IMG/VR virus record: IMGVR_UViG_3300046657_000006
Coordinates: 1-64,000 of that record
Direction: 5' to 3' (one strand)
Origin: a virus
Length of the DNA stretch: 64,000 nt
Shown: one piece after another, positions 10,099 through 37,178 of the stretch
Layout of the letters: the number at the start of each line of letters is the position of its first letter
How positions within the stretch are numbered: position 1 is the first letter of the stretch
Notes under the pieces: model-generated
Database searches by the model: none
The model's input: only the letters and a program-made list of their open reading frames with translations
Told to the model about the DNA's origin: nothing
Position numbers and translations under genes: made by a program

Positions 10099-10254
10099 TT
10101 ATTTCTTCTCCTTCTTGCTTGCCTCGATGTGCTTCTCAGCTGCGATAACCATTTCCGCGCTCACCGTGCGCCGATTACTTGCGGCCAGCTTCTTGATGCC
10201 CCTGAAGACTTCGGGCGGGAAGTAGATGTGCGTATCCTTGAATTCTTGTTTCAT
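10099..10254 (-). CDS. Ribbon-helix-helix DNA-binding protein (51 residues)
   Basis: A short gene encoding MKQEFKDTHIYFPPEVFR..., with a beta strand (THIYFP), helix A (EVFRGIKKLAASN) and helix B (TVSAEMVIAAEKHIEA), the Arc/CopG fold. Such proteins bind operators as dimers and usually regulate their own promoter. No ribosome-binding site precedes the ATG. Instead a TTGACA...TACCTT promoter ends 8 bases before it, so the mRNA may be leaderless. It shares a promoter box with the divergent region at 16640-16673, so this protein may act there too. Confidence 0.75.
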   Translation of the reverse strand: MKQEFKDTHIYFPPEVFRGIKKLAASNRRTVSAEMVIAAEKHIEASKKEKK

Positions 10255-10262
10255 GGGAGAAG

Positions 10263-10291
10263 AAGGTACTACGATAGGATAAGGCTGTCAA
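10263..10291 (-). promoter_or_regulatory. Leftward promoter immediately before the ribbon-helix-helix gene
   Basis: On the minus strand, TTGACA (10291-10286) is separated by 17 bases from TACCTT (10268-10263). The ATG at 10254 begins 8 bases after the -10 box, where transcription itself would be expected to start. The flanking AGTTGTTGACA is repeated at the leftward promoter at 16668-16678. Both boxes are overlapped by the end of the 10295-10456 gene. Confidence 0.6.
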
Positions 10292-10294
10292 CAA

Positions 10295-10456
10295 CTATTT
10301 CTTCCGTTTCCACCGCCTTGGCCATTTTGTTTTCAACTTCGGAATTATGCGTTCCTTCCGAACTGTCAACAATTCGCTTGAACGGTTATTCTTGTCCTGA
10401 TCTTTCTCTTTCTGAGTTTCAGTTTTACTGATTAACTTTTTGTAGAAGCTCTTCAT
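10295..10456 (-). CDS. Small highly basic protein
   Basis: 53 residues, unusually basic, ending PRRWKRKK; the N-terminal half is helical (MKSFYKKLISKTETQKEKD). The ATG at 10456 has a GGTGGTG stretch 4-10 bases upstream as a weak ribosome-binding site. Such Lys/Arg-rich proteins are often nucleic-acid-binding. Too short to place in a family. Confidence 0.6.
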   Translation of the reverse strand: MKSFYKKLISKTETQKEKDQDKNNRSSELLTVRKERIIPKLKTKWPRRWKRKK

Positions 10457-10603
10457 AAATCACCACCAAGGAGACTCGGTTGGCAGACGGATACCTTCCC
10501 CTCGGTATCCGCTTAATCACCACCAAGTATGACTTCGGAGGCTTTGACGTACAGGTTCTTCTTGATCTAGTAACTCACCGATATTTTGTGAGTCGGGTGG
10601 ATT

Positions 10604-10801
10604 TTACGTGCCGTCAAGAAAGCGGGGCTGATTCAACCACGATCTAAAGTTGCGACTCCGTTCCCAGCGTCGGCTTAGAAATATGGTGATCGTAGCGAGA
10701 GAACCAGCTTCGTATACTGTAAGCTCTTCCCCCAACACGAACTGATTAGGATTGCTTCTTGGGTCGAAAAGGTCGAATAGGAAGGGAATCCATTGTTTCA
10801 A
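10604..10801 (-). CDS. Possible small protein with TTG start
   Basis: A 65-residue frame beginning at a TTG 18 bases downstream of the -10 of the strong promoter at 10819-10846. There is no clear ribosome-binding site and no family match; the frame contains a mixed, protein-like composition (FVLGEELTVYEAGS). A competing 24-codon frame overlaps its start. The 147 bases between this frame and the next gene hold no further gene, but carry an 8-base-pair hairpin (10488-10511) and two copies of AATCACCACCAAG. Uncertain. Confidence 0.35.
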   Translation of the reverse strand: MKQWIPFLFDLFDPRSNPNQFVLGEELTVYEAGSLATITIFLSRRWERSRNFRSWLNQPRFLDGT

Positions 10802-10818
10802 ATATCTCAGTTAGAGAC

Positions 10819-10846
10819 ATTATAAACGGATTTTACTTGCAGTCAA
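10819..10846 (-). promoter_or_regulatory. Strong sigma70-type leftward promoter
   Basis: On the minus strand, TTGACT (10846-10841), a 16-base spacer and a perfect TATAAT (10824-10819). It faces the recombination/replication operon (10456 down to 1726) and is the best candidate for its main promoter. Transcription would start near 10812. Confidence 0.75.
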
Positions 10847-10886
10847 TAAATTATTTTGGTAGGCTTCTGACCGTCCATCACGTGTC

Positions 10887-10946
10887 AGACATCTCAGTTG
10901 CAAAGCTGCCTCGGCTCCGGTCGGGGCAGTGGCGCGTTAGATGTCT
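10887..10946. repeat. Nested inverted repeat between two leftward operons
   Basis: AGACATCT (10887-10894) pairs with AGATGTCT (10939-10946), enclosing a second 9-base-pair stem, CTGCCTCGG / TCGGGGCAG, with a 6-base loop. It lies between the last gene of the 11-16 kb leftward operon (stop at 10987) and the promoter at 10846. No T run follows on the minus strand; rightward it is followed by TTTCTT. It may end transcription of the upstream operon or be a protein-binding or processing site. Confidence 0.5.
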
Positions 10947-10986
10947 TTCTTGGCCTAGCCCGACACGGTAGAGAGGTTTTTCCTCA

Positions 10987-11109
10987 TCACCTATACTCTC
11001 CATGCAGCTTCTCTTCCTCCACGATCTTCCTCATAACTAAAGTCCACACAGGTAATGGACAGTCTTCAATGAGGTGGAGGGCGATTAGCAGTCGTTTAAG
11101 TAGTTTCAT
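10987..11109 (-). CDS. Tiny basic/helical protein (40 residues)
   Basis: Encodes MKLLKRLLIALHLIED..., ending EEKLHGEYR, with a short amphipathic N-terminal helix. The ribosome-binding site TAGGAG sits 8 bases before the ATG and includes the upstream gene's stop codon, so the reading frame is well supported despite its size. Possibly membrane-associated. No family recognised. Confidence 0.6.
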   Translation of the reverse strand: MKLLKRLLIALHLIEDCPLPVWTLVMRKIVEEEKLHGEYR

Positions 11110-11119
11110 TCGTTCACTC

Positions 11120-11335
11120 CTAAAGTTCGTCGAATACTTTGCCGACTTCAATCATTGCGCCCATATAGCCAACGACAGTGCCCTTGAAAAACGCTTTCTT
11201 AGTCGCGTCAGGTTCCTCATCTTGGAGCTTTTGTTGTGCAGCATGGGATGTCCCCAGCGCACTATAAAGCTCACGCCGTAACGAAGCGATGAACGATTCC
11301 ACTTCTCGTTCGGCCTTCTTTGCAATTTTACTCAT
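11120..11335 (-). CDS. Hypothetical helical protein
   Basis: 71 residues, charged and alpha-helical, beginning MSKIAKKAEREVESF and ending in a glycine-containing hydrophobic helix (GYMGAMIEVGKVF). It overlaps the end of the C2H2-like gene by 8 bases. No family recognised. Confidence 0.65.
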   Translation of the reverse strand: MSKIAKKAEREVESFIASLRRELYSALGTSHAAQQKLQDEEPDATKKAFFKGTVVGYMGAMIEVGKVFDEL

Positions 11336-12002
11336 TGCTCTTCCCTTCCGCTCCTACTTGCTGAGGGGTTGTAACATCTAGTCCCTGTCTTTCACCAGCC
11401 GCGAACGATTCAGGGTCATGCTGCACAGAACTCGCGGTGCTAACGTCTGGGTTGTTGCTCGCTGCGCTCGACTTAGTAAGTTGAATAATTGCTGCGATTC
11501 CCATGCGAGCAGCGCGGCGTTGATTGTCCGTTGCGTCAAGGTCGTCAGCGATAGACGACAACGCTGCCAGTACGGGCTCGCTATCGTCGTACATGCTGAA
11601 CTGGTGCAACTGTTCTTCTGCGGCGAGGGCACGGCCTTCCATACTGTCGTAAACAAAGAACGCGTCGTTAATTGACCGGCACTCTTGAAAGGGCTTATAG
11701 CTTCGCATCGCGGTAGTTAAGGATTCGACGTTGCATTCAAGACGTTCGATCTCGCCGCGACTTTGTAGCGCTTGCTCCATCCATTCATCACGGGATACTT
11801 CGGCCTTTCGCAATTCCATCACCAACCCAAGTTCATTCCCGGATTTGATTCGACATGCCGACGTCGCGCCCGGGGTCTCGCCGAAATGATCTTGCGCCGC
11901 ACCGATGGTGGTGAAACTATCGCCGCAATGGAAGCACGTCCAACCGCCTTCGGGCATCATGTAAGTTTCGGCGACACTAAACTCCAAGTGGGCGTCAGTC
12001 AT
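11328..12002 (-). CDS. Phage protein with N-terminal C2H2-like zinc finger
   Basis: 224 residues. Residues about 20-50 (WTCFHCGDSFTTIGAAQDHFG) form a zinc-finger-like head of a type seen in many phage orphan proteins, followed by a coiled-coil segment (LRKAEVSRDEWMEQ...) and a Ser/Ala/Asn-rich C-terminus. DNA of that tail (CTCGCTGCGCTCGACT, minus-strand sense reversed) also occurs at the end of the 12639-13157 gene, a sign of recombination within the operon. Likely a DNA- or protein-binding factor; role unknown. Confidence 0.7.
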   Translation of the reverse strand: MTDAHLEFSVAETYMMPEGGWTCFHCGDSFTTIGAAQDHFGETPGATSACRIKSGNELGLVMELRKAEVSRDEWMEQALQSRGEIERLECNVESLTTAMRSYKPFQECRSINDAFFVYDSMEGRALAAEEQLHQFSMYDDSEPVLAALSSIADDLDATDNQRRAARMGIAAIIQLTKSSAASNNPDVSTASSVQHDPESFAAGERQGLDVTTPQQVGAEGKSNE

Positions 12003-12259
12003 TTGGAGTCTCCTTGACGAATGCGCCCCGCGATGTATCGGCCTCCAGATGAGTAGTAAGTCTCAGCAATCACCGCACACATCTCCCGCTCTGCCTTTAG
12101 CAGTTCATCCACTTGTGATTGGGTGTAGCAGCGAACTGCGGTTACAGTGCTAAGGTGTTCCCAAATCTGTTCCTTTGTCCCACGCTCATCTAAGAACGCC
12201 ATTTCTACGGCCTTGCGAACTGCATTGAGGCTTACCAATCTGTCGGTTCCGTTACTCAT
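11999..12259 (-). CDS. Hypothetical protein
   Basis: 86 residues, mixed alpha/beta prediction, with two cysteines not arranged as a zinc site. It begins MSNGTDRLVSLNAVRKAVEMAF and contains a YTQSQVDELLKAE segment that resembles the short helical repeats of other genes in this operon (also seen at 15590-15958 as YTQAQLDYAVELE). Linked by ATGA overlaps on both sides. Confidence 0.65.
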   Translation of the reverse strand: MSNGTDRLVSLNAVRKAVEMAFLDERGTKEQIWEHLSTVTAVRCYTQSQVDELLKAEREMCAVIAETYYSSGGRYIAGRIRQGDSK

Positions 12260-12579
12260 CCCTGTCGTCCTTTCATTTGATTGTCGTACTCAGCTAAGGC
12301 GCGATTCAGCCTATGAATTGAGTCCGGGTCGCCGCAGTCTTGCAGTAGTCGGTTGCGAGCGAACGTTGCCGCCTCTGCCAGCCTCTTACACACTGCAAAC
12401 AAGTCCCCGCCTTGAATTGCTAACTGATTTCGCTCGTCGGTCAGACGTTCGATCTCAGCCCTTTCCAGAGTAGGAGAATCGTCGCTGATGGAGAACACGG
12501 GTCGCGTGTAGGTCTCGCCTCCAACAAGTCTGCGTTCAGGTGAAGGCGGAATAGAACTCTTTGTTTTTGATTCACTCAT
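12256..12579 (-). CDS. Hypothetical coiled-coil protein
   Basis: Start at the ATG at 12579, preceded by the repeated box TTTTGAAAGGACTTGAT with AAAGGA as ribosome-binding site; the frame stays open to 12618. The 107-residue product has a proline-containing head and a helical region (LERAEIERLTDERNQLA) typical of short phage coiled coils. No family recognised. Confidence 0.65.
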   Translation of the reverse strand: MSESKTKSSIPPSPERRLVGGETYTRPVFSISDDSPTLERAEIERLTDERNQLAIQGGDLFAVCKRLAEAATFARNRLLQDCGDPDSIHRLNRALAEYDNQMKGRQG

Positions 12580-12638
12580 ATCAAGTCCTTTCAAAACCAA
12601 TTCGTTCAATGCAGACAAGAACTCGCAACTTAATCGGG

Positions 12639-13157
12639 TTAGGAGTTACTCGCTGCGCTCGACTCGGCAGGTTGAAGTGCGGCGCGGCAAATTGCTTCTG
12701 GCAGCGTTGCCGCTTGCGCCTCAACCTCATAGCCTCCGCTCATCCGAAACGAGGCGCTCCACGAAGTGTCCGGCATTCCGTAAACGTCGTTAGTTATACA
12801 GTCAGTGAGCCAGCCTAACTCGCGCATCTTTTCGATCACTTCCATTGCGGCGGCTATGTCGGTTGAGGGCGACCATTTCCTAAAGGTGCGGTCGTACAGA
12901 GCGTTCGCGCCGTAAGTGTACGGCTCACCTCTAAGCACGCCCATCTTGTAGTGAAGCATCCATGCCACATCCCTGCGGTCGTCACCTTCATCACGATCAC
13001 TGCGGACACGCTTCCACTGCATCACCCGCTCCGCAACGAGCGCGTCCAGTTCGCGCCCCGCCACACAAGGTTGTCCGTCCGCTTCGGCGGCTCGGAGAGT
13101 CTCGCCTGATTGAGTTGCGAGGTGTTGGTTCTCATCAACTTCATTTTCTTGTTTCAT
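12639..13157 (-). CDS. Phage ABA-sandwich-domain protein
   Basis: 172 residues. After an N-terminal leader (MKQENEVDENQ, shared with the gene at 13364-13885), residues about 35-165 match the phage ABA sandwich family: LDALVAERVMQWKR, then WSPSTDIAAAMEVIEKMRELGW and a closing ATLPEAICRAAL. The family is common in phage accessory regions and has no known biochemical role. The ATG at 13157 is preceded by AAAAAGGATTTGAT. Confidence 0.8.
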   Translation of the reverse strand: MKQENEVDENQHLATQSGETLRAAEADGQPCVAGRELDALVAERVMQWKRVRSDRDEGDDRRDVAWMLHYKMGVLRGEPYTYGANALYDRTFRKWSPSTDIAAAMEVIEKMRELGWLTDCITNDVYGMPDTSWSASFRMSGGYEVEAQAATLPEAICRAALQPAESSAASNS

Positions 13158-13158
13158 A

Positions 13159-13362
13159 TCAAATCCTTTTTATCGGTGACGCCATGCTCATCATCCAGAA
13201 ATCCATGATCCACATCCAACGTGATTGCAGTTTCTTGAAATACCAACCGTAGGCCGCTTGGCGTTGCAATCGCTCCTGAACGACCACGGCGCGAAGCACG
13301 GCGTTTTCAACTTGCAGTCGCCTAATGTGGTTCAGGTAGTTAGTACGTTCGGTGTTGCTCAT
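13159..13362 (-). CDS. Small Trp/Met-rich hypothetical protein
   Basis: Start at the ATG at 13362, right after the repeated box TTTTGAAAGGATTTGAT; the frame is open to 13437. The 67-residue product has a helical N-terminal half and an aromatic, hydrophobic C-terminus (SRWMWIMDFWMMSMA) that could sit in or on a membrane. Its last codons and stop lie inside the next copy of the repeated box. Confidence 0.6.
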   Translation of the reverse strand: MSNTERTNYLNHIRRLQVENAVLRAVVVQERLQRQAAYGWYFKKLQSRWMWIMDFWMMSMASPIKRI

Positions 13363-13363
13363 A

Positions 13364-13885
13364 TCAAATCCTTTCAAAACCATCGGGCTCGGCTGTACCC
13401 GTCGAAGCGACGGAGTTGGTATCGGGCTTGGTGTCAACGAATTCCACTACTACCCCAAGCACGTCGAATAGCTCGGTAATCCTTTGCTCGCGCTCGCTTT
13501 CGTTCATCTGCGGGTTGTCGTTAACTTCCATTAACTCTTCGACCGCTCCGGCGTGCCTGTAGGCGTATAACCGCTCTTCGTCGGACACAATGAGATCGCC
13601 GAGCGACTCGGGCGCGACCACTTCTTCGACAAGTAGATCTTCCGGTGTATAGACGTTTCGAATTTGGTCAGAACGCAAGCCGCGTCGAATGCAGTCAAAT
13701 CCCAAACAGCACATCTTGCCGTCAGCGTCCCGCAGCAACATCGAGTTCCGTAGATCGCCTCTTAGCCACCTGTCACGCTCGATCACAAGAACGGGATGGG
13801 CAGCACTCAACTCTGAAGTGGGTTTCATCTCGGCACTTGGAACGGCTGAGGTTTGGTTCTCATCAACTTCATTTTCTTGTTTCAC
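13364..13885 (-). CDS. Conserved phage orphan protein with MKQENEVDENQ leader
   Basis: 173 residues, GTG start at 13885. The first 11 residues, MKQENEVDENQ, are identical to those of the 12639-13157 protein although the rest differs. Residues about 38-70 (DRWLRGDLRNSMLLRDADGKMCCLGF) match a segment found in many phage and bacterial proteins of unknown role. The gene ends in a copy of the repeated box. Function unknown. Confidence 0.7.
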   Translation of the reverse strand: MKQENEVDENQTSAVPSAEMKPTSELSAAHPVLVIERDRWLRGDLRNSMLLRDADGKMCCLGFDCIRRGLRSDQIRNVYTPEDLLVEEVVAPESLGDLIVSDEERLYAYRHAGAVEELMEVNDNPQMNESEREQRITELFDVLGVVVEFVDTKPDTNSVASTGTAEPDGFERI

Positions 13886-14034
13886 ATCAAATCCTTTTTC
13901 TGTTTAATTGACAGACCCTCGCTAGTCAGTTGCGCGGCTCGGAGAGAAAAATCATTTCAAGGTTAATGCTGCACAGAACTCACTATGGAGTCGGGCTAGA
14001 TACAGCTCGCTTCGCTCGTCTCGGTGCGCTGACG

Positions 14035-14505
14035 CTACCCCACCCAAACGTAGCCCTCATCCGGCACTTCGCCCTCGCGCTCACTGGCCTTGATTTCTGC
14101 AGCGCGAATCACGAGCACGTCGGGCTGTTTTTCGTAATCTTCAAGAGTCACGTACGACTTGAAAGTGTATTTCTCGTTCGGACGTTCAACGTACCTTCCG
14201 ATATAGCCGCGCTTAACGCCCTTGCCACTTATGAACGCCTCTGACTCAGGTATTTCCTTGCCCGTTTTCTTGTTGATATAAGCGTAGTCACAGCCTCGAT
14301 GGTAGCCCGTCAAGTCTTCGAGCGACTCGCTCTCGCTGATTGAGTAATCACTGCCACAACACGTGCAGGACACGCGATCAGGATTGTGCCCGAATCGGTT
14401 ATAGAAAATTGTTTTAGCTTCGGTTTCAGGGGCTTCGATATAAATCATCGCCCACTTTGCCTTCTGTCCGCCGCCGCTATGCATGTCCCAAAATTTCGTC
14501 CACAT
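14035..14505 (-). CDS. Conserved phage protein with CTCC motif
   Basis: 156 residues, beginning MWTKFWDMHSGGGQK, a start I recognise from conserved phage proteins of unknown role. It continues with IYIEAPETEA, a CTCCGSDYSI zinc-like motif near residue 48 and GCDYAYINK. The downstream 149 bases to the 13885 start hold no gene. GGAGAAAGG precedes the ATG. Confidence 0.75.
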   Translation of the reverse strand: MWTKFWDMHSGGGQKAKWAMIYIEAPETEAKTIFYNRFGHNPDRVSCTCCGSDYSISESESLEDLTGYHRGCDYAYINKKTGKEIPESEAFISGKGVKRGYIGRYVERPNEKYTFKSYVTLEDYEKQPDVLVIRAAEIKASEREGEVPDEGYVWVG

Positions 14506-14561
14506 AACCTTTCTCCAATCTGTCTTTCAAAATAAGAACCCGTGAATGCCACGGTGCACTC

Positions 14562-14744
14562 TCAGCCCAACAAGCGGGCGTTACGAATAATTGCTGCGGC
14601 CTCATAATCCCCCCGCATCAAACAATACAACTCCGCCCTCACTGAAATATGATAGCCTTCATCTGTCGTCCTCATGTGAATACGTGTGCGACTTTCTGAG
14701 GGGTCGAAGCGAGCGTGCGTTAATTGGGTTTCAAGGTTGATCAT
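14562..14744 (-). CDS. Small hypothetical protein
   Basis: Start at the ATG at 14744 with GGAG 8 bases upstream (a GTG lies one codon earlier). The 60-residue product has a beta-rich middle (RTRIHMRTTDEGYHISVRAEL) and a helical end. No family recognised. Confidence 0.6.
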   Translation of the reverse strand: MINLETQLTHARFDPSESRTRIHMRTTDEGYHISVRAELYCLMRGDYEAAAIIRNARLLG

Positions 14745-14780
14745 CACTTAATCTCCGCGTTCATCGGCACCTGTTCATTC

Positions 14781-14993
14781 TTACTTGTCATTGGCTATCT
14801 CGTTGCGGTGACGCTTAATAAACATGATAAGCGCATCGCCTGCCGCGCTAGTTTGATAACCCACGCCATTGCAGAATTCGCAACCGACCGGTGATGGCGT
14901 TTTAGACTGGCCGCTACCATTACAATTCCAGCACTTGTGGTCTAATTCGTCCATAATGGCTTCTACGTCAATTTCTATATTTGCGCCCATCAT
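14781..14993 (-). CDS. Small DnaJ-type zinc-binding protein
   Basis: 70 residues with two CxxCxGxG-type pairs: CWNCNGSG and CEFCNGVGY, about 18 residues apart, the DnaJ central-domain zinc pattern. The same motif type occurs in the gene at 102-368. AGGGAGGG directly precedes two adjacent ATGs, either of which could be used. Confidence 0.7.
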   Translation of the reverse strand: MMGANIEIDVEAIMDELDHKCWNCNGSGQSKTPSPVGCEFCNGVGYQTSAAGDALIMFIKRHRNEIANDK

Positions 14994-15019
14994 CCCTCCC
15001 TTATTCCTGCACCTCGTTA

Positions 15020-15208
15020 CTATTCGTCATTCCAACATTGACATCCCGTTGGTTCGGCATAGCAGGATGAACAGACGCCAACAACTAATGACACAATTTG
15101 AGCGCGCTGCTTATTTGTCAGCAACGGAAACGTCTCCACTACCGTTTCCCAAAGCTCCGTGTATTCTCTGCTTGCTAGGTTGGCTCCAATTTGCTCAACT
15201 TCAATCAT
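15020..15208 (-). CDS. Small helical protein with cysteine tail
   Basis: Start at the ATG at 15208, which follows GGAGGAGCGATAGCG, a ribosome-binding site that also holds the upstream stop. The 62-residue product is helical and ends with a cysteine cluster (CSSCYAEPTGCQCW) that may bind zinc. No family recognised. Confidence 0.65.
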   Translation of the reverse strand: MIEVEQIGANLASREYTELWETVVETFPLLTNKQRAQIVSLVVGVCSSCYAEPTGCQCWNDE

Positions 15209-15210
15209 CG

Positions 15211-16194: not shown

Positions 16195-16241
16195 CTCTCT
16201 CCTTCATCCTCCTGTCGGTTTCCTAGTGGGGGGCTAGTTGG

Positions 16242-16604
16242 CTATCCGCGCAGCTCTTCGTTAATGAACTTGACCGCTTTCTCTTGGCCGTGCGTAATCC
16301 AGTCAAACTTGCCGTAAGATTCCACGGCCTTACGTAGATCGGCCTCATAATGGTCGCCACGAAACGAGTTGGCACCGAAGGCGATAACGTCTTGCGCAAG
16401 TAGTCCACGGTCAAACACAGCCACGTGGTAAGGCTCATCGAAAACGATTCCAATCATCTTTCCCTGCGCACCTTCGATCTCGTTCAGCTTGTCAATCAAT
16501 CGCGTTTTTGGTTTTGCAACTTCGCTGTCAACAAACTTCACGACGTAAAACCCCGCTCCGCTAACGCCGTTTCGGTGATACGCTACTTCTTCAATTTTAA
16601 TCAT
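16242..16604 (-). CDS. First gene of leftward accessory operon, hypothetical
   Basis: Start placed at the ATG at 16604, which has GAGGAGGA 7 bases upstream, giving a protein of 120 residues (MIKIEEVAYHRNGVSGAGFYVV...). An earlier in-frame ATG at 16637 lies 6 bases after the promoter -10 box and would give a leaderless 131-residue form. The protein has a beta-rich first half and a helical end and resembles conserved phage orphans. It is the promoter-proximal gene of the operon running down to 10987. Confidence 0.7.
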   Translation of the reverse strand: MIKIEEVAYHRNGVSGAGFYVVKFVDSEVAKPKTRLIDKLNEIEGAQGKMIGIVFDEPYHVAVFDRGLLAQDVIAFGANSFRGDHYEADLRKAVESYGKFDWITHGQEKAVKFINEELRG

Positions 16605-16643
16605 CACGTCCTCCTCAGTTGTTGCTCTAGTTGCCATGTGCAG

Positions 16644-16673
16644 AAGGTAGCACGACCAGAAAGTAAATGTCAA
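16644..16673 (-). promoter_or_regulatory. Leftward promoter of the accessory operon
   Basis: Minus strand: TTGACA (16673-16668), an 18-base spacer and TACCTT (16649-16644). The surrounding AGTTGTTGACA and the TACCTTCT box are also found at the promoter of the 10254 gene. It faces left, back to back with the rightward promoter at 16688-16716. Confidence 0.65.
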
Positions 16674-16687
16674 CAACTATTTTAACC

Positions 16688-16716
16688 TTGACGGTAAAAT
16701 CTTTTCAGCGTAGAGT
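16688..16716 (+). promoter_or_regulatory. Rightward promoter of the ribbon-helix-helix gene
   Basis: TTGACG (16688-16693), a 17-base spacer and TAGAGT (16711-16716). The ATG at 16725 lies 8 bases after the -10 box and has no ribosome-binding site, so the mRNA probably starts at or next to the start codon. The two divergent promoters share a region of about 90 bases, a natural place for one regulator to control both arms. Confidence 0.65.
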
Positions 16717-16724
16717 CTGCAAGC

Positions 16725-16913
16725 ATGGGAAGACCAAAACTGTCAGAAACAAAACAGCAAATAGCGGCACGGGTTGCTCCAAGCGTAAAAACGGCTATAG
16801 AGGCGATTGCGAGCAGCGAGCGGCGCACAGAGTCTCAAGTAATTGAAATGCTGCTTGAGCGGTCACTGAAAGCCAAAGCAAGACAGGAGAAAGCGTGGCG
16901 AGCAAGCTCCTAA
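16725..16913 (+). CDS. Ribbon-helix-helix regulator
   Basis: 62 residues: a basic N-terminal strand (KQQIAARVAPSVKT), helix A (KTAIEAIASSERR) and helix B (ESQVIEMLLERSLKAKA), the CopG/Arc fold. Likely a dimeric repressor binding the divergent promoters immediately upstream. It overlaps the replication-initiator-like gene by 19 bases, so both are expressed together, linking regulation to replication. Confidence 0.75.
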   Translation: MGRPKLSETKQQIAARVAPSVKTAIEAIASSERRTESQVIEMLLERSLKAKARQEKAWRASS

Positions 16914-17470: not shown

Positions 17471-17499
17471 GTGACAAGGCAAAGATACTCTGATAAAAT
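17471..17499 (+). promoter_or_regulatory. Rightward promoter with extended -10 before 17508
   Basis: GTGACA (17471-17476), a 17-base spacer and TAAAAT (17494-17499), preceded by TGA to give an extended -10 (TGATAAAAT). The ATG at 17508 follows 8 bases later without a ribosome-binding site, another leaderless-type start. Confidence 0.65.
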
Positions 17500-17507: not shown

Positions 17508-17612
17508 ATGGACAAGTTCAGTAAATGCAAGCAGCATCCCGAGCGTGAAGCGGTTGTTGAAGGGGTGTGTCAAGAATGCTGGGACAGGGCGCTTTTGGTG
17601 GCGTGCAGTTAG
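17508..17612 (+). CDS. Tiny zinc-binding protein (34 residues)
   Basis: Encodes MDKFSKCKQHPEREAVV...CQECWDRALLVACS: a C-x2-H pair followed by a CxxC pair, which can bind one zinc ion. Too short for the ordinary gene threshold, but supported by its promoter and the coherent zinc motif. Similar micro zinc proteins are at 24771 and 14781. No family recognised. Confidence 0.55.
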   Translation: MDKFSKCKQHPEREAVVEGVCQECWDRALLVACS

Positions 17613-19115: not shown

Positions 19116-19167
19116 TATTTCAAAATGAACCAGTGCCTATTTGACAGGTTAATGCTAAGATTCCAGC

Positions 19168-19827
19168 ATGAGCACTGCGCTAACAGGGATACCAAGTTCC
19201 CCTGTATTTCACCCAGCAACGAACTCTGGTCTAACTCTCAAGCAGCAGCTCTTCATCAAGCACTACCTTGAACTCTCTCTAAATGGCGGCGACAAAAGAA
19301 GTTACGGCGTTGAAGCCGCAAAACTAGCAGGCTATTCAGGCAGTAACGGAACGCTCGCTGCCATTGCCTCAGAAAACTTAACCAAGCCTAACATCCGCGC
19401 AGAGATAACCAGACTCTTCAATCCTCTTGCCTCAGCAGAGGAAACCCTTGCAAGGCTTACAAAGTACTCCAGAAGCTCAATTGCTGACGTTTTAGATGGC
19501 TCTGGCTCATTTGACCTTGATTATGCCAAGGCTAACCATGCTGACGATCTAATCAAAAAGCTCAAGATTAAGCGCAGAATCATCCCCGTAAAGGACGGAG
19601 AGCCTGAAACCGAGATAACCCACGAAATAGAGCTTTACGACGCGATGCAGGCCACGGAAACGCTAGCAAAACACCACGGATTGCTGGTCGATAGGTCTGA
19701 ATCAATCAAAATCAACGTTGACCTAAAAGCTGAGGATTTAGCGAGTATTCTACAAGGTGCGCTGTCAGCAGGAGCAATTGATGTAAGTGGTACAGTTGTT
19801 ATGCCAAAGACGAGTGAAATCGACTGA
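19168..19827 (+). CDS. terS: Terminase small subunit
   Basis: 219 residues. Residues about 22-85 match the terminase small-subunit DNA-binding domain: GLTLKQQLFIKHYLE..., VEAAKLAGYSGSNGTLAAIASENL and TKPNIRAEI. The C-terminal part (about 100-215) is the oligomerisation region. Small terminase subunits recognise the packaging site and stimulate the large subunit. It is 15 kb from the large subunit (35211), which is unusual because they are normally adjacent. The ATG lies 6 bases after a weak -10-like TAAGAT and has no ribosome-binding site. TTGACA lies at 19151-19156, too close to pair with that -10. Confidence 0.85.
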   Translation: MSTALTGIPSSPVFHPATNSGLTLKQQLFIKHYLELSLNGGDKRSYGVEAAKLAGYSGSNGTLAAIASENLTKPNIRAEITRLFNPLASAEETLARLTKYSRSSIADVLDGSGSFDLDYAKANHADDLIKKLKIKRRIIPVKDGEPETEITHEIELYDAMQATETLAKHHGLLVDRSESIKINVDLKAEDLASILQGALSAGAIDVSGTVVMPKTSEID

Positions 19828-20262
19828 ATATTTACAGGGATTTGATAATGTTCTGTAAGTTATAGCAAATAGCCTACGTTACGGCGAAGTAGGACGCACC
19901 GCGCTAATTCACCCCTTCTCTCACCCCTCTAACTAATAGATAAATAAGAACATAGCGCACCATGCGCCCGTGCTGGCTGACAGTTGGAGCAGACGTGCGT
20001 TCATGCGTCCATTGTACCACGCTTAAACAGTGAGATGTTAGGTGAACAGTGGGCAGCTAAGTCATTGACTGGTAAGGGGTAGGGGGCGGGGGTTAACTTT
20101 TCAGGGCAGAATGTACAGGCGATGACGTAGGGGTTCGCGAGGCTAGGGGTTCTTTTCAGGGCGAGGCTATAGCGCGTGGGAGCGAGGTTCGTTTAGGGGG
20201 CGTTTTCAGGAGTTGTAAAATAGGTATTGCGTGTTACGGTAAGACGTGTTACCTTGCTTGGT
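19828..20262 (+). other. Non-coding region downstream of terS
   Basis: 435 bases with no credible gene. It carries three imperfect repeats at 20089-20212 (listed separately) and, next to 20263, CGTGTTAC repeated with GGTAA...TTACC symmetry (20230-20252) that may be an operator for the next gene. Such a region after terS is a natural candidate for a packaging (pac/cos) site. Confidence 0.5.
20089..20212 (+). repeat. Three imperfect GGGG...TTTTCAGG repeats
   Basis: Copies at 20089-20109 (GGGGTTAACTTTTCAGGGCAG), 20146-20165 (GGGGTTCTTTTCAGGGCGAG) and 20196-20212 (GGGGGCGTTTTCAGGAG), 57 and 50 bases apart, about five helical turns. Similar spacing of short repeats occurs in terminase or initiator binding sites. 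They lie downstream of the small terminase gene. Confidence 0.5.
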
Positions 20263-20628
20263 ATGGAAGAACAAGAGATTGAGAAGGCGGTAATAGGGTC
20301 GGTACGGCTGGATTCTGACGTATGGGAGGCGGTGCGAGCGATGCCGGAGTCTTTGAACGTGTATTTACGGCGGGGACTGTTGGGGGGAGGGCTGGTATCG
20401 CGCAAAATTTCCAAGAAACAGGCTCAGGTAGACGCGTTGAGGGCGTCTGACCCGCTGGCGACAATTATGGAGCGAGAGGACATAGAGCACGGGAACATGG
20501 ATTTGCCTTCATCTGGGTCGATTGCGACTTTGGATGCTGTATCGCCTGTGGCGAACTCAAAGACCGGAAAGGCGTCAGTGCAGGTATATCAGAATCGGAT
20601 GCGGCAGAAGGGGGATAAGACGCGATAG
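20263..20628 (+). CDS. Possible ribbon-helix-helix-like regulator
   Basis: Start taken at the ATG at 20263, which lies 7 bases after TACCTT and has no ribosome-binding site; the frame is open to 20227. The 121-residue product begins with an acidic head and IGSVRLDSDVWEAVRAMPESLNVYLRRGL, which resembles a strand followed by a helix of small DNA-binding regulators; the rest is a flexible charged tail. It overlaps or abuts the HNH gene (stop 20628, next ATG 20629). The symmetric repeats just upstream could be its operator. Confidence 0.55.
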   Translation: MEEQEIEKAVIGSVRLDSDVWEAVRAMPESLNVYLRRGLLGGGLVSRKISKKQAQVDALRASDPLATIMEREDIEHGNMDLPSSGSIATLDAVSPVANSKTGKASVQVYQNRMRQKGDKTR

Positions 20629-24578: not shown

Positions 24579-24731
24579 ATGGCTCGCGTAACAACAACGC
24601 GGCGATTATCGAGCATTTTGCGCTTTGAGGCAAGCACTTTTTGTGGTAGACTCTTTCCGGTTAGCCGACCATCCGTAACAACAACACTTTTCAACCTCGT
24701 GAAGAAATTTGCGAGGTTGAATTGTTTTTAG
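24579..24731 (+). CDS. Doubtful 50-codon frame before the terminator
   Basis: An ATG at 24579 has GGAAGGAC upstream and opens a 50-residue, basic frame that ends in the T run of the terminator at 24690-24729. It contains two copies of VTTT arising from a repeated CGTAACAACAAC. Nothing matches a known protein, and the terminator lies within it, so it may be non-coding. Confidence 0.3.
   Translation: MARVTTTRRLSSILRFEASTFCGRLFPVSRPSVTTTLFNLVKKFARLNCF
24690..24729 (+). terminator. Strong intrinsic terminator
   Basis: A perfect 10-base-pair stem, TTCAACCTCG / CGAGGTTGAA, with a 12-base loop, is followed by TTGTTTTT. It ends the transcript from the small-gene cluster to its left and isolates the promoter at 24735. 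Confidence 0.85.
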
Positions 24732-24770: not shown

Positions 24771-24872
24771 ATGAAGGAATGTAAGAAGTGTGGGCATAGG
24801 TGGTACGCGAGAACGGCCAAAAGGCCGCGTCAATGTCCGAAGTGTTGGTCGGCAAAGTGGGACAAGAAATGA
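24771..24872 (+). CDS. Zinc-ribbon micro-protein (33 residues)
   Basis: Encodes MKECKKCGHRWYARTAKRP..., ending CPKCWSAKWDKK: two CxxC pairs 15 residues apart, a classic zinc ribbon, with basic and aromatic residues between. Such ribbons often bind nucleic acids. Missed by size cutoffs but strongly supported by a promoter, a coherent motif and ATGA coupling to the next gene. The start is leaderless-type. Confidence 0.7.
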   Translation: MKECKKCGHRWYARTAKRPRQCPKCWSAKWDKK

Positions 24873-26805: not shown

Positions 26806-26930
26806 GGCGAGTGCAAAGGATCGTGACATGCCCGATCACGCCTCGCGGGGCTGACTCTGCTCCAACTCTTAACCTTGCCACTTACACCAAAAGACCTATA
26901 ATCTCTAGCCCGACAGACCCGCCAAGCTAG
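26802..26930 (+). CDS. Possible 42-residue protein
   Basis: An ATG at 26802 overlaps the previous stop (ATGA) and has GAGGAGG upstream, giving a Pro/Thr-rich frame (MRRVQRIVTCPITPRGADSAP...). It ends at 26930 and overlaps the promoter at 26875-26902. No recognisable motif; possibly non-coding. Confidence 0.4.
   Translation: MRRVQRIVTCPITPRGADSAPTLNLATYTKRPIISSPTDPPS
26875..26902 (+). promoter_or_regulatory. Rightward promoter 1 of the virion operon
   Basis: TTGCCA (26875-26880), a 16-base spacer and a perfect TATAAT (26897-26902). It lies about 95 bases upstream of the first virion gene. Confidence 0.7.
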
Positions 26931-26957: not shown

Positions 26958-26986
26958 TTGACATCCTTCGGTCATTAAACTAATCT
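26958..26986 (+). promoter_or_regulatory. Rightward promoter 2, next to the scaffold start
   Basis: TTGACA (26958-26963), a 17-base spacer and TAATCT (26981-26986). The ATG at 26996 lies 9 bases after the -10 box with no ribosome-binding site, so the mRNA from this promoter would begin at or near the start codon. Confidence 0.6.
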
Positions 26987-26995: not shown

Positions 26996-28522
26996 ATGAC
27001 TCCTGAAGCTAGTTTATCTAGCACCCCCGATGTGGCTAATTCTGTAGCGGTTAGCAATGAAGGTTCTTCTTCAGCGGATTCATCGACCGCACCGCAAGCT
27101 ACAACAGACTCTTCGTTGGCGAACGTACAATCGCAGTCTGTTCAAGATCAAAACGCAACCCAACAAACACCGGACGATCCGCTCGCAGGTTTACCTTCAG
27201 CCGATGAGCTAAAGGCACTTGTAGCGCAGAACGCTCCGAATGCAAAGGGGTTGGCGCAACTACGCGAGGCTTACGAAAAACGCTCAACCGAGTTTACCGA
27301 ACTTCAAGGGAAATGGAAGACGTTCGAGCCAGTGGCCGACAAGTTTTCTGCCCCTGAAGAAATTCAGAGTTTGGTAGACATGCGAGAGGCGTTACTCGGA
27401 TGGGAAAACCAAGATGGTCGTCTCGTGCCGAGCACAGAACGGTTCATTCAATCGCTTGACCCGCAGCGAGCAGAGTTCTTGTTTGCTGATCTAGCCGATG
27501 GAGTTTCTGCAAGTGGAGAACCTCGGATAGAGAAGGCGCTCAAGTACATGGCCGCTGACCCGGACCGCAGGGCTAACGCTCTAAAGATTCTGGGAGGCGT
27601 AGAACCTTCTGCCGTAGCTCCGCAGTGGCAGGCAACAGAAGAACAGTTGGCCGTAGTCAAACCGGAACTTCAAGACACCTTCAAGAAGCTCCCTTATGAG
27701 AAACGGGAAGCTCTTGCTACCAACGATCCTGAATTCATCAATGATTACTTGGGCGAACAAAAGCTCAAGAATGACTTGATTCAGGAACGAGAGCAAAGGG
27801 CGCAGCAAGATCAACAAATCGCCCAGCAAAGAGAGCAGATGCTTCAGGCGGAAGCTCAAAAGGCGGGCGATGAGAATGTGCGCACTCAACTTTCTGAGGC
27901 CATGACCACTTTCCACAAATCAGTTGTCGATCAGTGCAAACTCATCGAACCACTTGATCCGAATAATCCACCACAGGGAATGGACGCGCAAGCAATAGCT
28001 CAATACAACCAGCAAGCCGAAGCAAGTAATAAAGCTGAGGCGGCTACGGTGACTTTAGCCGTGGTTGGGTTGATAAACGAGCAGACGCGGCCTTTCGTTC
28101 TACCGCTCCTCAAGGAAATAGGGGTTATAGACGATAAATTCCTGAGTGAACTGGACAACGCGGCCAAGGGATTCGGTGATAACGCTAGAAATTACGGACA
28201 TTTGACCTATCAACAGAAGTTACGAGCCAACGGTAACGGCTATCAGCCGGGACAGGATGTAACCATGTTGAATAATGAAGCCCAAAGGAACCGGAAACTG
28301 CTGAGTTACTACGCAAATCAGCTATCCAGCCGTCTTTTGGAGAAAAAAGGTCAAACATTCGGAATGAAAGCCACGGGTCACAATAATATCTTGAACGGAG
28401 TAGCCCCGTCGCGACCTAACGCCAATGGTGGCAGTTACGATCCGACGAAAGCTACTGCTCAAACTCACGATCCACAGAATCCGTGGCCTACCCGTGCAGA
28501 GCTTGGGCGCCAGTATGGCTAA
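26996..28522 (+). CDS. Scaffold-like virion assembly protein
   Basis: 508 residues. A long Ser/Thr/Ala/Gln-rich N-terminus (about 1-60) is followed by a charged helical and coiled-coil region (DLIQEREQRAQQDQQIAQQREQMLQ at about 262-286) and a short ordered C-terminus. This composition and the position immediately before the capsid gene suit a scaffold or internal head protein that shapes the procapsid and is usually removed. The start has no ribosome-binding site but a strong promoter directly before it. Identification rests on position and composition. Confidence 0.6.
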   Translation: MTPEASLSSTPDVANSVAVSNEGSSSADSSTAPQATTDSSLANVQSQSVQDQNATQQTPDDPLAGLPSADELKALVAQNAPNAKGLAQLREAYEKRSTEFTELQGKWKTFEPVADKFSAPEEIQSLVDMREALLGWENQDGRLVPSTERFIQSLDPQRAEFLFADLADGVSASGEPRIEKALKYMAADPDRRANALKILGGVEPSAVAPQWQATEEQLAVVKPELQDTFKKLPYEKREALATNDPEFINDYLGEQKLKNDLIQEREQRAQQDQQIAQQREQMLQAEAQKAGDENVRTQLSEAMTTFHKSVVDQCKLIEPLDPNNPPQGMDAQAIAQYNQQAEASNKAEAATVTLAVVGLINEQTRPFVLPLLKEIGVIDDKFLSELDNAAKGFGDNARNYGHLTYQQKLRANGNGYQPGQDVTMLNNEAQRNRKLLSYYANQLSSRLLEKKGQTFGMKATGHNNILNGVAPSRPNANGGSYDPTKATAQTHDPQNPWPTRAELGRQYG

Positions 28523-30613: not shown

Positions 30614-30715
30614 TACGTTCTCCTTTAAGCTAACGTGATGTTCTATCGCGGGCGAGAATTTAGCCTCTCGCTCGCAACTAAATTTTCGGTAAGTATACCA
30701 TAGGAGGGCAACTAA

Positions 30716-31719: not shown

Positions 31720-31729
31720 AGGAGATTGC

Positions 31730-33022: not shown

Positions 33023-33772
33023 ATGGGCACTATCAACTCAATGATGGACGGCACGCTGATACGCTTAGATGATCCGCGAGCGCAGAGGCCGGGAAACGCC
33101 CAATTACTCCAAGAGGTTTGTAGTCAGATCAGAAATTTGTTCCGCCAGAAACGGAACTCAGGAAATGTATGGCAGTTTGGAACCACAAGTGTTGATGTTT
33201 CACCCGGAGAGAACACTTACCAGATAGGTGTTAACGATTTCGGAACTCCGCTTTCTGTAATAACCGTGAACGATACAGGCGACAGTAATTTTGTTGTTCG
33301 CCGCATTCCTTTTTACACCCCACAAGACCTTGCGTTTAATTGGGGGCTTCCGGCCAATGCGGGTTATTGGCTTACGGGGAACTGGAACGATCCGTGGCAT
33401 ACGGCACTTCGCTGCGCGATTTTTTGGACAAACAACCTTCCGTACATTCAATTTGAGCCTACCCCTCAATACGGATGTTCTTATTCCATTAAATACTTGC
33501 AGAACGCCAACAACGTAGGCGTCACAGCGTTAACCGCATCTCCGCTGCCGGATGAGGACTGTGATGTCGTGGAACTCCGTGCCGCCCTAGGGTTGCTAGC
33601 AATGGCAGAGTGGGAAGGTAACGATCCACAATCGAATTCAAACAAGCGCAAGGAAATGATGGTCACCTTGAGTCGGAACGAGCAACTTGCTGCTGAACAG
33701 TTCAACATAGCCAATTTGATTACGAATGCCCCCGGAGTTAAGACACGCGATCAGGCGATGCTTTCTTGGTGA
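33023..33772 (+). CDS. Head-tail connector-like virion protein
   Basis: 249 residues with a beta-rich core (GVNDFGTPLSVITVNDTGDSNFVVRRI) and a helical C-terminal half (VVELRAALGLLAMAEWEGNDPQS...). The size, composition and position between capsid and terminase fit a neck or adaptor protein. It begins at the ATG right after the previous stop. Its last 22 bases overlap the end of the opposite-strand nuclease gene. Confidence 0.5.
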   Translation: MGTINSMMDGTLIRLDDPRAQRPGNAQLLQEVCSQIRNLFRQKRNSGNVWQFGTTSVDVSPGENTYQIGVNDFGTPLSVITVNDTGDSNFVVRRIPFYTPQDLAFNWGLPANAGYWLTGNWNDPWHTALRCAIFWTNNLPYIQFEPTPQYGCSYSIKYLQNANNVGVTALTASPLPDEDCDVVELRAALGLLAMAEWEGNDPQSNSNKRKEMMVTLSRNEQLAAEQFNIANLITNAPGVKTRDQAMLSW

Positions 33773-34596
33773 GAGACCTTCGTTTGAAGAGGGCGGCTAA
33801 GAGCATCTTCAGGACTCCACCGCTTGAGCCGAGATGTAATCGTTTGAAACTTTAATCCCGTTTTGCGTACCCATTGTGACACGGTTAATGTCTCCCCAAA
33901 AGCCGTTACCAAGTGATTCGTACGTTTATTTGAGTTCTGCTCTTCGCTGTTGCCCCATTTTGTGTTAATAGGGTTATAGCCCTCGTCGTTATTGATTCGA
34001 TGTAGCGAAAGTTCTGGTGAAGGTCGTTTTCCCATATCTCGGAGAAACGTTTCAAATCCAGTTTTACCTTGCCATTCCGGGCAAACGGTAATGCCGCGAC
34101 CGCCCCAATCTGAATACGAAGGATGAAGAGCCGACAGGCATCTTTGAGTCATATTGTTCCACGCTGCGTATTCAACGGCATATTCTGGATTTCTTGATTT
34201 CCCGTGAGTGGTATTCCGTTCGCGCACGACATCTCGATTTAGACACCCACAGCTTTTTACGGTGCCTCCTACTAGGTTGCAAGAACTTGCGTAATGCGTT
34301 TTCCCACAATCGCACAAACATTCCCACTCAATTAGTTGCTTTCGTTTTCTGCCGCTCGGACGCAAAGCAAGCAGTCGCGTAAATCGCTTATTAGTTAAAT
34401 CGAGCCGATGCCTCCCCCTAGCGCACCCGCAACTTTTAGTGTGGCCGTTGACAAGGCTAACTGCTTTTACGAAAGCGGTGTTTCCGCAATCGCAAAGGCA
34501 CTCCCAAACGATAGTCCCTTGTCGGCGTTCGGTGGTAGGGCGTAAAGCTATAAGACTGTGGAATCGCTGATTTGTGATAGACTTTCTGGCAGGCAT
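33751..34596 (-). CDS. HNH-like homing endonuclease with duplicated CDCG heads
   Basis: 281 residues. Two copies of a CLCDCGNT...TKSCGC / CLCDCGKT...VKSCGC zinc-like head (residues about 31-59 and 92-119), then the HNH-like core: WGGRGITVCPEWQGKTGFETFLRDMGKRPSPELSLHRINNDEGYNP and TKWGNSEEQNSNKR. The duplicated head suggests two DNA-binding modules. AGGAGAACC precedes the ATG. Encoded opposite to the virion genes, overlapping the end of one; likely a mobile, free-standing nuclease. Confidence 0.75.
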   Translation of the reverse strand: MPARKSITNQRFHSLIALRPTTERRQGTIVWECLCDCGNTAFVKAVSLVNGHTKSCGCARGRHRLDLTNKRFTRLLALRPSGRKRKQLIEWECLCDCGKTHYASSCNLVGGTVKSCGCLNRDVVRERNTTHGKSRNPEYAVEYAAWNNMTQRCLSALHPSYSDWGGRGITVCPEWQGKTGFETFLRDMGKRPSPELSLHRINNDEGYNPINTKWGNSEEQNSNKRTNHLVTAFGETLTVSQWVRKTGLKFQTITSRLKRWSPEDALSRPLQTKVSHQESIA

Positions 34597-34671
34597 CGCG
34601 GTTCTCCTATCGAACTAAGATGTTGGGGCTAGCGGGCGCATCGCACGTCTGCTAGTCCCGCAAATTATAGC

Positions 34672-34971
34672 ATGGAATCTACTAATTTTGACGACACGAC
34701 AGAAGCGTTACCAAACGGTGCAAATCTGCCTGAACACCCCGCGCTCACAACCTCCAAGAAAATCACAGAGTATGGTCGAGTTTGGGATGATGCAGACGGA
34801 GTTACACTACACGGTGGACTTCACGAAGCTGAAATCAGAAACTTAATGAATGGCGATCAGATGGCCTTGAAGCATCTTTACAGGTTCGCAATCAGAAACA
34901 AGAGAATCTTTCACACCCGCAACTTGGTTTGTATTGACGTAAAAACAGAAAATGTGGACACCGCTGACTAA
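34672..34971 (+). CDS. Small protein related to the 50100 tail protein
   Basis: 99 residues. The second half (GLHEAEIRNLMNG...LYRFAIRNKRIFHT..IDV) aligns by eye with GLHEDEIRAIVNG...LYSYALRPPRIYST..IDV in the 50100-50801 protein, so the two are probably paralogues within the phage. The N-terminus is acidic. No ribosome-binding site precedes the ATG. Probably a virion or assembly protein. Confidence 0.55.
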   Translation: MESTNFDDTTEALPNGANLPEHPALTTSKKITEYGRVWDDADGVTLHGGLHEAEIRNLMNGDQMALKHLYRFAIRNKRIFHTRNLVCIDVKTENVDTAD

Positions 34972-35194
34972 AAGCATTTACAACTCCCTGAATGACCTTG
35001 CATCTACCTGCGGGCTTCAAGGCGAGTCAGGCTCAGAAGAACTATTCGACATGCTGGGAGCGGCGTATCTAGAGTTGGATGCTGAGTGCGTTCTGGAAGA
35101 GAGCCATGAAGAAGGGCTTTGTTTAGACATGAACGCAGAACTAGCCCACAAGATAGAAAAGTACCTCACAAATAATCAGCCACGCGGCCACTGA
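34952..35194 (+). CDS. Small helical virion-cluster protein
   Basis: 80 residues, overlapping the end of the previous gene by 20 bases. Helical and acidic (MWTPLTKSIYNSLNDLASTCGL...). Its stop lies inside the promoter preceding the terminase gene. No family recognised. Confidence 0.5.
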   Translation: MWTPLTKSIYNSLNDLASTCGLQGESGSEELFDMLGAAYLELDAECVLEESHEEGLCLDMNAELAHKIEKYLTNNQPRGH

Positions 35195-35195
35195 G

Positions 35196-35204
35196 TGGTA
35201 TAAT
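35196..35204 (+). promoter_or_regulatory. Extended -10 promoter right before terL
   Basis: TGGTATAAT (35196-35204) is a perfect extended -10 element. The GTG start of the terminase gene begins 6 bases later (35211), and no ribosome-binding site is present, so this is a candidate leaderless promoter. No good -35 is seen at the usual spacing, which an extended -10 can tolerate. Confidence 0.6.
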
Positions 35205-35210
35205 TCTACC

Positions 35211-37178
35211 GTGCCCGAAGTAACCCTCGAACAGACCTACCAGTTTATTAAGACCTGCACAGCCGAACAACTCAATAAAATCCTTGAATGGCTGAAGGTG
35301 AATCAGCCTGAAAACTACCAGAAGGTTGCTCAGTATCTTCAGGCAAATCGGGGTTATTTAACCGAAGTCAAAGGCTACGAAGCGTGGCTCAAGATGATGG
35401 GGCCACATTCGTTCACGGGGGATTTTTCCGAGTTTCATAAGGACATCTGGAATTGGTATTGGCCGCTCACTGAGAAACAGAAGCACGGCAAGCCAATGGA
35501 CTTGGAAGACCTAACTTACTTTGCTATCTGGGGGCGTGGTTTAGGAAAATCGACCAACGCCGAGTGGTTGGCAATCTGTGAGGGATGTTTGATTGGAAAA
35601 GGCTTTGTCTTGTATGTCTCCGGCACGGCAGAACAAGCTGAGGCGCACGTAGAGGCCATTAGAGAGCGTATAGAGCAAGAAGGAGCGCTGTCTCAATCCT
35701 ACCCAGCAATGCAAAAGCCGGAAGTAGGGGAGCATAAAGCTAACAAGAAAGCGAAAATTCAAGGTTACGGCTGGCGACAAGATTACTTGATGACCGCTAA
35801 TGGTTGGGCGGTGCGTCCAGTTGGGTTAGATAAGGCTATTCGTGGATGGAAGCGCGGTGACAATCGTGTAAGTCTCATAATTTTAGATGACATCGACGAT
35901 GACGATGACTCGCCTGAAGTAATTCTCAAAAAAGAACGTCGCATAGCCAAGAAAATCCTGCCAATGGGCACAGCGCGAACGAAAGTGGTTTTTGCGCAAA
36001 ATCTCATTCACTCCAATTCAGTTTTGAATCGGATGCACACGCGGCAGACTGACATTCTAGCGCTGCGCAAGGGCGATGAAGCAATTAAGGCGTTTGAGGA
36101 AATAGAAATCCAGCATGAGATTACCCCTCGCGGGCCTCGCAGCATTATCAAGAGCGGTAAACCGACGTGGCCGCACATCGACATGGCTGAATGTCAGTCG
36201 TTTCTTGATCGTTCGGGGCTTGATGGTTTCATGGCTGAGTACCAGCATGACTTCTCTGGTGAGCAGGATGATCGCGTATTGCCTGAATATGATGACCGGG
36301 TGTTGAAAACCCACCTGATTACTTGGGGGCAATTTGAGGCGCTATACAAAACCAATCGCATTCCTTCCGCATGGGCTTGCGATGTTGGGCTTGATATTGG
36401 TTACACAACTGGCCACAAATCCGCGTGGACGTTTCTCTCTAAGGTTCCAGAAGGCTATCCCTTAGCAGGGAGCATCTTTCGTTATCGGGGCTGCGTGTTT
36501 ACTTCAACTACGATTGGAGACATGGAAGTTGCGGTTCGTGGTCGCATGTGGCCTAGTGAGCAGATTCAGCGAGAGTTCATGTCGCATGAAAAACTAGGTG
36601 AACAGTTAGTTCTGAATGGCGAGCATGGCTGGCACTTTCACCCTTGCGATTCCGCGAAGACCGCTGGAATCGCACAATGGCGGCATTTCCTTCGCCCTGA
36701 TAAATCTAAACCGCATCCATTTCATAGAGACGAAAAGGGGGCAGATGGTCTATGGAAGATCGGGTGTCCCGCGTGGTTCGATATAGTTGTCCCAGAACAG
36801 TTTCACGCTTCCGACATGAAGGATGATTTGGGGCTAAAGATTCACCGCGATCAGGCTTATAAATGGAAAATGCGAAAGGTGGAAGAAACTAAATCAGGAA
36901 TGACTGTTGAGCAGCCAATGAAAGCCGATGAGGACAGTTGCGATTCAACAAGAATGCTGACAGTAGCATTTGGGCCAGTTCAGCAGCCCATGACATTGGC
37001 TCAAAGAATTCAATCCATTATACCCGCTGGATACCACGATTCTGAGCTTGCTCAAAGAACTGACATAGACCCAACCCAAAAAGCAATGACAAGCGACATG
37101 GCAAATTGGTTCGCCAAGCGACAACTGAAAGCGAGACTTCCTAAGCCCAAAGACCAGTTCGGGCAAAGTCTCAGGTAA
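35211..37178 (+). CDS. terL: Terminase large subunit
   Basis: 655 residues, GTG start. The N-terminal ATPase has Walker A GRGLGKST (108-115) and Walker B LIILDD (222-227) with a following acidic run; the C-terminal nuclease begins with CDVGLDIGY (D391, D395). TerL docks on the portal, drives DNA into the head with ATP and cuts the concatemer. The gene lies far from terS (19168), just before the portal gene. The start has an extended -10 but no ribosome-binding site. Confidence 0.92.
   Translation: MPEVTLEQTYQFIKTCTAEQLNKILEWLKVNQPENYQKVAQYLQANRGYLTEVKGYEAWLKMMGPHSFTGDFSEFHKDIWNWYWPLTEKQKHGKPMDLEDLTYFAIWGRGLGKSTNAEWLAICEGCLIGKGFVLYVSGTAEQAEAHVEAIRERIEQEGALSQSYPAMQKPEVGEHKANKKAKIQGYGWRQDYLMTANGWAVRPVGLDKAIRGWKRGDNRVSLIILDDIDDDDDSPEVILKKERRIAKKILPMGTARTKVVFAQNLIHSNSVLNRMHTRQTDILALRKGDEAIKAFEEIEIQHEITPRGPRSIIKSGKPTWPHIDMAECQSFLDRSGLDGFMAEYQHDFSGEQDDRVLPEYDDRVLKTHLITWGQFEALYKTNRIPSAWACDVGLDIGYTTGHKSAWTFLSKVPEGYPLAGSIFRYRGCVFTSTTIGDMEVAVRGRMWPSEQIQREFMSHEKLGEQLVLNGEHGWHFHPCDSAKTAGIAQWRHFLRPDKSKPHPFHRDEKGADGLWKIGCPAWFDIVVPEQFHASDMKDDLGLKIHRDQAYKWKMRKVEETKSGMTVEQPMKADEDSCDSTRMLTVAFGPVQQPMTLAQRIQSIIPAGYHDSELAQRTDIDPTQKAMTSDMANWFAKRQLKARLPKPKDQFGQSLR

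Follow-up and report, generated by a model that had tools for sequence, protein, structure and literature searches.

Start-adjacent promoters point to leaderless mRNAs in an uncultured phage lineage

The locus

Virus record IMGVR_UViG_3300046657_000006 of IMG/VR comprises 72,865 bases of about 50% GC, most of which is covered by the window analysed here (positions 1 to 64,000; 64,000 bases). A direct repeat of 127 bases, exact, lies at both record ends (positions 1-127, which are also window 1-127, and 72739-72865), suggesting a complete, circularly mapping genome. Genes run leftward from 16637 and mainly rightward from 16725. The present analysis concerns nine start codons in the window that an earlier note had proposed, with differing clarity, to be of leaderless type, that is, preceded by a -10 promoter box so closely that transcription would begin at or near the start codon itself. 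The relevant features are as follows, with distances in nucleotides (nt).

10263..10291, minus strand: promoter P10254, -35 TTGACA (10286-10291), 17 nt, -10 TACCTT (10263-10268), 8 nt to ATG
10099..10254, minus strand: 51-residue Arc-like ribbon-helix-helix (RHH) repressor-type gene, predicted leaderless
16644..16673, minus strand: promoter P16637, -35 TTGACA (16668-16673), 18 nt, -10 TACCTT (16644-16649), 6 nt to ATG 16637
16242..16637, minus strand: first gene of the leftward block, with a leaderless-type ATG at 16637
16688..16716, plus strand: promoter P16725, -35 TTGACG (16688-16693), 17 nt, -10 TAGAGT (16711-16716), 8 nt to ATG
16725..16913, plus strand: 62-residue Arc/CopG-like repressor-type gene, predicted leaderless (phrog_3431, E 2.8e-5)
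17471..17499, plus strand: promoter P17508, GTGACA, 17 nt, TAAAAT, 8 nt to ATG
17508..17612, plus strand: small open reading frame of 34 residues with a CxxH...CxxC motif, gene status uncertain
19156..19161, plus strand: -10-like TAAGAT, 6 nt before ATG 19168, with a weak -35
19168-19827, plus strand: terminase small subunit
20227..20255, plus strand: promoter P20263, TTGCGT, 17 nt, TACCTT, 7 nt to ATG
20263..20628, plus strand: 121-residue gene, called as coding, with a probable leaderless start
24690..24721, plus strand: terminator-like stem of 14 pairs, 5 of them G-C, directly upstream of P24771
24735..24762, plus strand: promoter P24771, TTGACT, 16 nt, TACAAT, 8 nt to ATG
24771..24872, plus strand: 33-residue zinc-ribbon-like gene (sub-threshold zinc-ribbon Pfam matches), predicted leaderless
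26875..26902, plus strand: second upstream promoter-like site, TTGCCA-16-TATAAT
26958..26986, plus strand: promoter P26996, TTGACA, 17 nt, TAATCT, 9 nt to ATG
26996..28522, plus strand: 508-residue gene, scaffold-like by position, at the head of a presumed capsid operon
35196..35204, plus strand: extended -10 box TGGTATAAT, 6 nt before GTG 35211, without a -35 box
35211..37178, plus strand: terminase large subunit with a GTG start (phrog_38, E 2e-24)

Promoters at the nine start codons

Reading of the upstream DNA bears out the layout described in the earlier note: all nine start codons are real, and each is preceded by a TANNNT -10 box whose end lies 6-9 nt away. Those at 10254 and 16637 belong to minus-strand genes, which corrects that description. 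The -35 boxes reported for 24771, 17508 and 26996 are present at the claimed spacing (TTGACT at 16 nt, GTGACA at 17 nt and TTGACA at 17 nt, respectively), but the list was too short, as good -35 boxes also precede 10254, 16637 and 16725; a TTGAC-type or GTGACA hexamer at 16-18 nt is thus found at these six of the nine starts. The perfect extended -10 box at 35211 is likewise exact. A matching -35 box at 16-18 nt or an extended -10 box therefore accompanies 10254, 16637, 16725, 17508, 24771, 26996 and 35211, and 20263 in part; at 19168 neither is found, the weak -35 standing alone. Among the starts that had been considered less clear, 20263 is probably leaderless, while 16637 probably has a leader and the case for 19168 is weak. 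The absence of ribosome-binding sites also holds, since the match to the Shine–Dalgarno (SD) sequence is shorter than 4 nt at the called starts and none was seen by eye at 16725, 17508 and 24771. Ordinary SD sites precede about half of the other genes.

Enrichment of the -10 box before SD-less starts

Gene calls were taken from a composition model that is blind to promoters and SD sites. The test set consisted of starts whose SD match was below 4 nt and whose upstream DNA was free for 15 nt or more; the same upstream regions, read at other offsets, supplied the expectation. In the window's phage, TANNNT stands 6-9 nt before 9 of 27 such starts against 1.7 expected (Poisson 7e-5), a count that takes in 16637 and the further starts 23319, 51438 and record position 65632; the starts 16725, 17508 and 24771 were missed by the gene finder and hence lie outside it. 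None of the 28 starts with an SD site has the box at this distance. The excess was replicated in nine related viral records, where 26 of 154 SD-less starts have the box (8.1 expected; 5e-7), while the SD starts of the same relatives show a small excess which is not significant (13 of 175 against 8.3). When the window's phage and its relatives are taken together, TANNNT ranks first of 64 XYNNNZ patterns (35 against 9.9; P 4e-10), and none of the other A+T-only patterns is raised at 6-9 nt. These boxes are also accompanied by higher -35 scores than TANNNT copies at other upstream positions (Mann-Whitney p 0.005).

The related records had been gathered with terminase, 26996, 28554 and 20263 queries. 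Two of them, G011 and G014, have about 31 kb in common at 88% identity and are therefore partly non-independent, and a few of the relatives' 26996 and terminase starts were not blind, having been inspected before the test was designed. The same method gave no excess on lambda (0) or Felix O1 (1). On the Thermus phage P23-45 it gave 4 against 2.0, which is not significant, and at three starts there a TATTATT box occupies the expected position. A generic promoter scan found 22 sites against 15.2 in shuffled sequence, a mild excess, so it is the spacing test and not promoter number that supports the case. Strong promoter matches within genes (e.g. 18311) were set aside. A stricter full-promoter scan by distance gave a peak in the window's phage (6 against 1.1) and none in single relatives, where the pattern is seen by pooling with the -10 box alone.

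The start at record position 65632 (L008:1632) belongs to a 744-residue gene with TATTTT 6 nt before its ATG. G011 and G014 encode large proteins with N-termini that look similar to that of its product, with TAGTTT 8-9 nt before the ATG.

Two Arc-like repressor-type genes

The products of 10254 and 16725 look like Arc-type RHH repressors. For 10254 this comes from weak PHROG matches to Arc-like repressors, with Antitox_RHH below its cut-off; for 16725, a single-sequence structure model places helices at residues 19-31 and 36-61, as in the RHH fold (predicted local distance difference test score, pLDDT, 85). P16725 and P16637 stand back to back, and no homologue of either the 16637 or the 16725 protein turned up in searches. 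A homologue of 10254 in another viral contig (L061/G015), with 65% protein identity and aligned from Met1, keeps the promoter layout (TTGACG-17-TAACTT-6-ATG). The eight bases between the -10 box and the ATG of 10254, CTTCTCCC, are all pyrimidine, so the A of the ATG is the first purine available.

Both leftward promoters carry the same 14 bases, AATAGTTGTTGACA, at their -35 boxes (10286-10299 and 16668-16681, minus strand), with no further exact copy within the window; a third TTGTTGACAG lies at 10363-10372. This element may serve the Arc-like repressors as a common operator.

Small genes

On its sequence, 24771 is the cleanest predicted unit of the set, with the stem just ahead of its promoter, although such terminator-like stems are no commoner here than in shuffled sequence. 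Homologues were found in three relatives (G010, G006 and G002), whose own starts do not keep the layout. The gene finder did not call the 17508 frame, and a homologue search with it returned no match. The start of L062, a homologue of 20263, has no comparable promoter.

Capsid-operon head and terminase

Homologues of 26996 with 37-50% identity keep the layout in four relatives: TTGACT-18-TAGTAT-6-GTG in G007, TTGCGT-18-TATCGT-7-GTG in G001, TTGCAA-18-TACACT-8-ATG in G010 and TAGATT-8-ATG in G002. It is not clearly seen in G008, G011 and G014. The block continues with a highly conserved protein of 430 residues (28554), presumably the capsid protein; this role is assigned by gene order because the structure model is unusable (pLDDT 29).

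For the large terminase, homologous starts have TATAAT-8-GTG in G004 and TATACT-7-ATG in G011, and in G007 and G014 the distance from TATAAT to the ATG is 16-17 nt. Since homologue layouts are mixed, the terminase case is good in the window and partly supported in the relatives.

Interpretation

The promoter motif, its spacing and enrichment, the lack of SD sites and the conservation in relatives are all observed directly. The enrichment of the pattern, its replication in relatives and its persistence among diverged homologues make leaderless transcripts with a leader of 0-3 nt the best reading. The proposal of the earlier note is accordingly upheld for 10254, 16725, 17508, 24771, 26996 and 35211, and probably for 20263. 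It is likely that about seven transcription units start with such mRNAs, made by the host's sigma-70 RNA polymerase. From these patterns we infer the actual 5' ends, leaderless translation and use of the host polymerase: a sigma-70-type host enzyme would use the -35/-10 promoter, or the extended -10 box at the terminase; the usual choice of start site would then put the start of transcription 0-3 nt before the start codon across the set; and the ribosome, probably as a 70S particle, would bind the 5'-terminal AUG or GUG without an SD site. The predicted leaderless heads would comprise small regulators (two Arc-like repressors and zinc-ribbon-like proteins) together with late packaging and structural genes.

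Several observations weigh against this reading. Chance would account for some of the TANNNT boxes that make up the enriched set, about 10 of 35. The distant record G005 is without the pattern (2 of 20 against 1.1), and the distant member G016 shows it weakly (3 against 0.7). At 26996, a second and stronger-looking promoter sits 84 nt further up. The terminase start at 35211 has no -35 box and is a GUG, a codon that serves leaderless initiation poorly in E. coli but works in some other bacteria (PMC9031893); its promoter falls in a 16-nt gap behind the preceding gene, so that co-transcription from upstream is possible, and is absent from the closest homologues (G001, G002 and G003). Finally, GAGGAGG precedes an in-frame ATG at 16604, 33 nt inside the 16637 frame. 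P16637 is therefore more likely to yield an ordinary SD leader of 33 nt, and translation of this gene probably starts at ATG 16604.

What is probable at 16637 might be general, with the -10 boxes real and translation starting from SD-led in-frame codons downstream, so that the mRNAs have ordinary short leaders. A possible GGGAGG-led start 78 nt into 20263 would fit this. However, 10254, 26996, 35211 and 19168 have no SD-led downstream alternative, the homologue of 10254 aligns from its first residue, and the fold of the 51- and 62-residue repressors would leave scant space for a later start; as a general account it is unlikely. The juxtaposition of box and start codon could also be coincidence in A+T-rich DNA, with the SD-less genes expressed from promoters further up by way of unstructured leaders, of ribosomal protein S1 or of coupling. 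The proportion of boxes expected by chance and the upstream transcript sources available to 26996 and 35211 speak for such a view, but at 6-9 nt TANNNT alone is raised and other A+T patterns are not, better -35 boxes accompany it, and box positions are retained in diverged homologues. Coincidence is accordingly considered very unlikely.

A variant compatible with leaderless transcription is that the start-adjacent promoters are real and that 26996 and 35211 are expressed mainly from longer transcripts, in which case leaderless translation would matter chiefly for the regulators. This is a tentative possibility to which the second promoter at 26902, the position of the terminase 16 nt behind another gene and the more distant terminase -10 boxes of G014 and G007 lend some weight; against it, the longer transcripts would also be without SD sites, and the 26996 layout is kept in several relatives. 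It is a far more doubtful suggestion that leaderless mRNAs form the phage's own translation class, whereby regulators and packaging and capsid heads would be favoured when infection shifts the levels of initiation factors or free 70S ribosomes.

Other features of the record

Further genes and sites in the window include:

5399-6499, minus strand: phage-encoded DNA polymerase III beta sliding clamp
16895: replication initiator

The clamp shares only about 25% identity with its counterparts in diverse named phages. Next to it, a 759-residue protein (3116-5395, minus strand) has SNF2/helicase and N6/N4 DNA methylase domains fused in one chain, and relative G006 matches its residues 2-436 at 70%. 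The neighbouring genes 12639-13157 and 13364-13885 (minus strand) have near-identical N-termini (MKQENEVDENQ and VKQENEVDENQ) and also similar upstream DNA (AAAAAGGATTTGAT), and look like a tandem duplication. The record's top-scoring promoter, TTGACT-16-TATAAT (10819-10846, minus strand), lies where no genes were called; the frame opened by the next ATG has only 15 codons, and this promoter possibly produces a small RNA.

Searches of named phages by nucleotide sequence and by terminase gave no useful relative. The sole match in a genome collection, a distant terminase in a Nitrospirae metagenome-assembled genome, was too remote for host prediction. Acidobacteria as host, on the basis of published leaderless genes (PMC3160421), is only a guess. 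The pattern itself suggests that the host copes well with leaderless mRNAs. It also provides promoters and start codons for an uncultured phage lineage, in which SD-based annotation could misplace these starts.

Comparison with known systems

In bacteria, leaderless genes are marked by a TANNNT box about 12 bp ahead of the start codon; they occur across phyla, averaging 13% in three Acidobacteria genomes (Zheng et al. 2011, PMC3160421). The phage starts share with them the box, its distance, the lack of an SD site and the mixture of SD-led and leaderless genes, but those genes are host chromosomal, whereas the ones here belong to a phage. In Deinococcus-Thermus, a -10 motif adjoining the start codon likewise drives leaderless expression, with a -35 box at 17+/-1 bp as the best-placed enhancer (PMC12340547). 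There it is a major expression mode tested with reporters; here it concerns a minority of genes and is read from sequence.

Among phages, transcription of lambda cI from PRM is leaderless. This mRNA is named as a leaderless example in work that also describes 70S-type ribosome binding to a 5'-terminal start codon, which is established for leaderless mRNAs as a class (PMC9031893). As with cI, a phage repressor-type gene beginning at a 5' AUG would lie close to a replication gene, but the proteins here are Arc-like and of RHH type, unlike a lambda-type repressor, and the same layout also occurs at late structural genes. Leaderless transcripts are also made by Thermus phages, P23-45 among them. 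In P23-45 genes the -10 box stands 6 nt ahead of the ATG, and three starts of this kind were counted here, but the phage is of another lineage and its sites share the TATTATT box. Phage transcripts have been remarked to be often leaderless (PMC5312081). The mechanism is already known, leaderless genes being documented in bacteria and phages; the present contribution is a replicated, clade-level sequence case in uncultured phages, predicted to span regulators and late operon heads.

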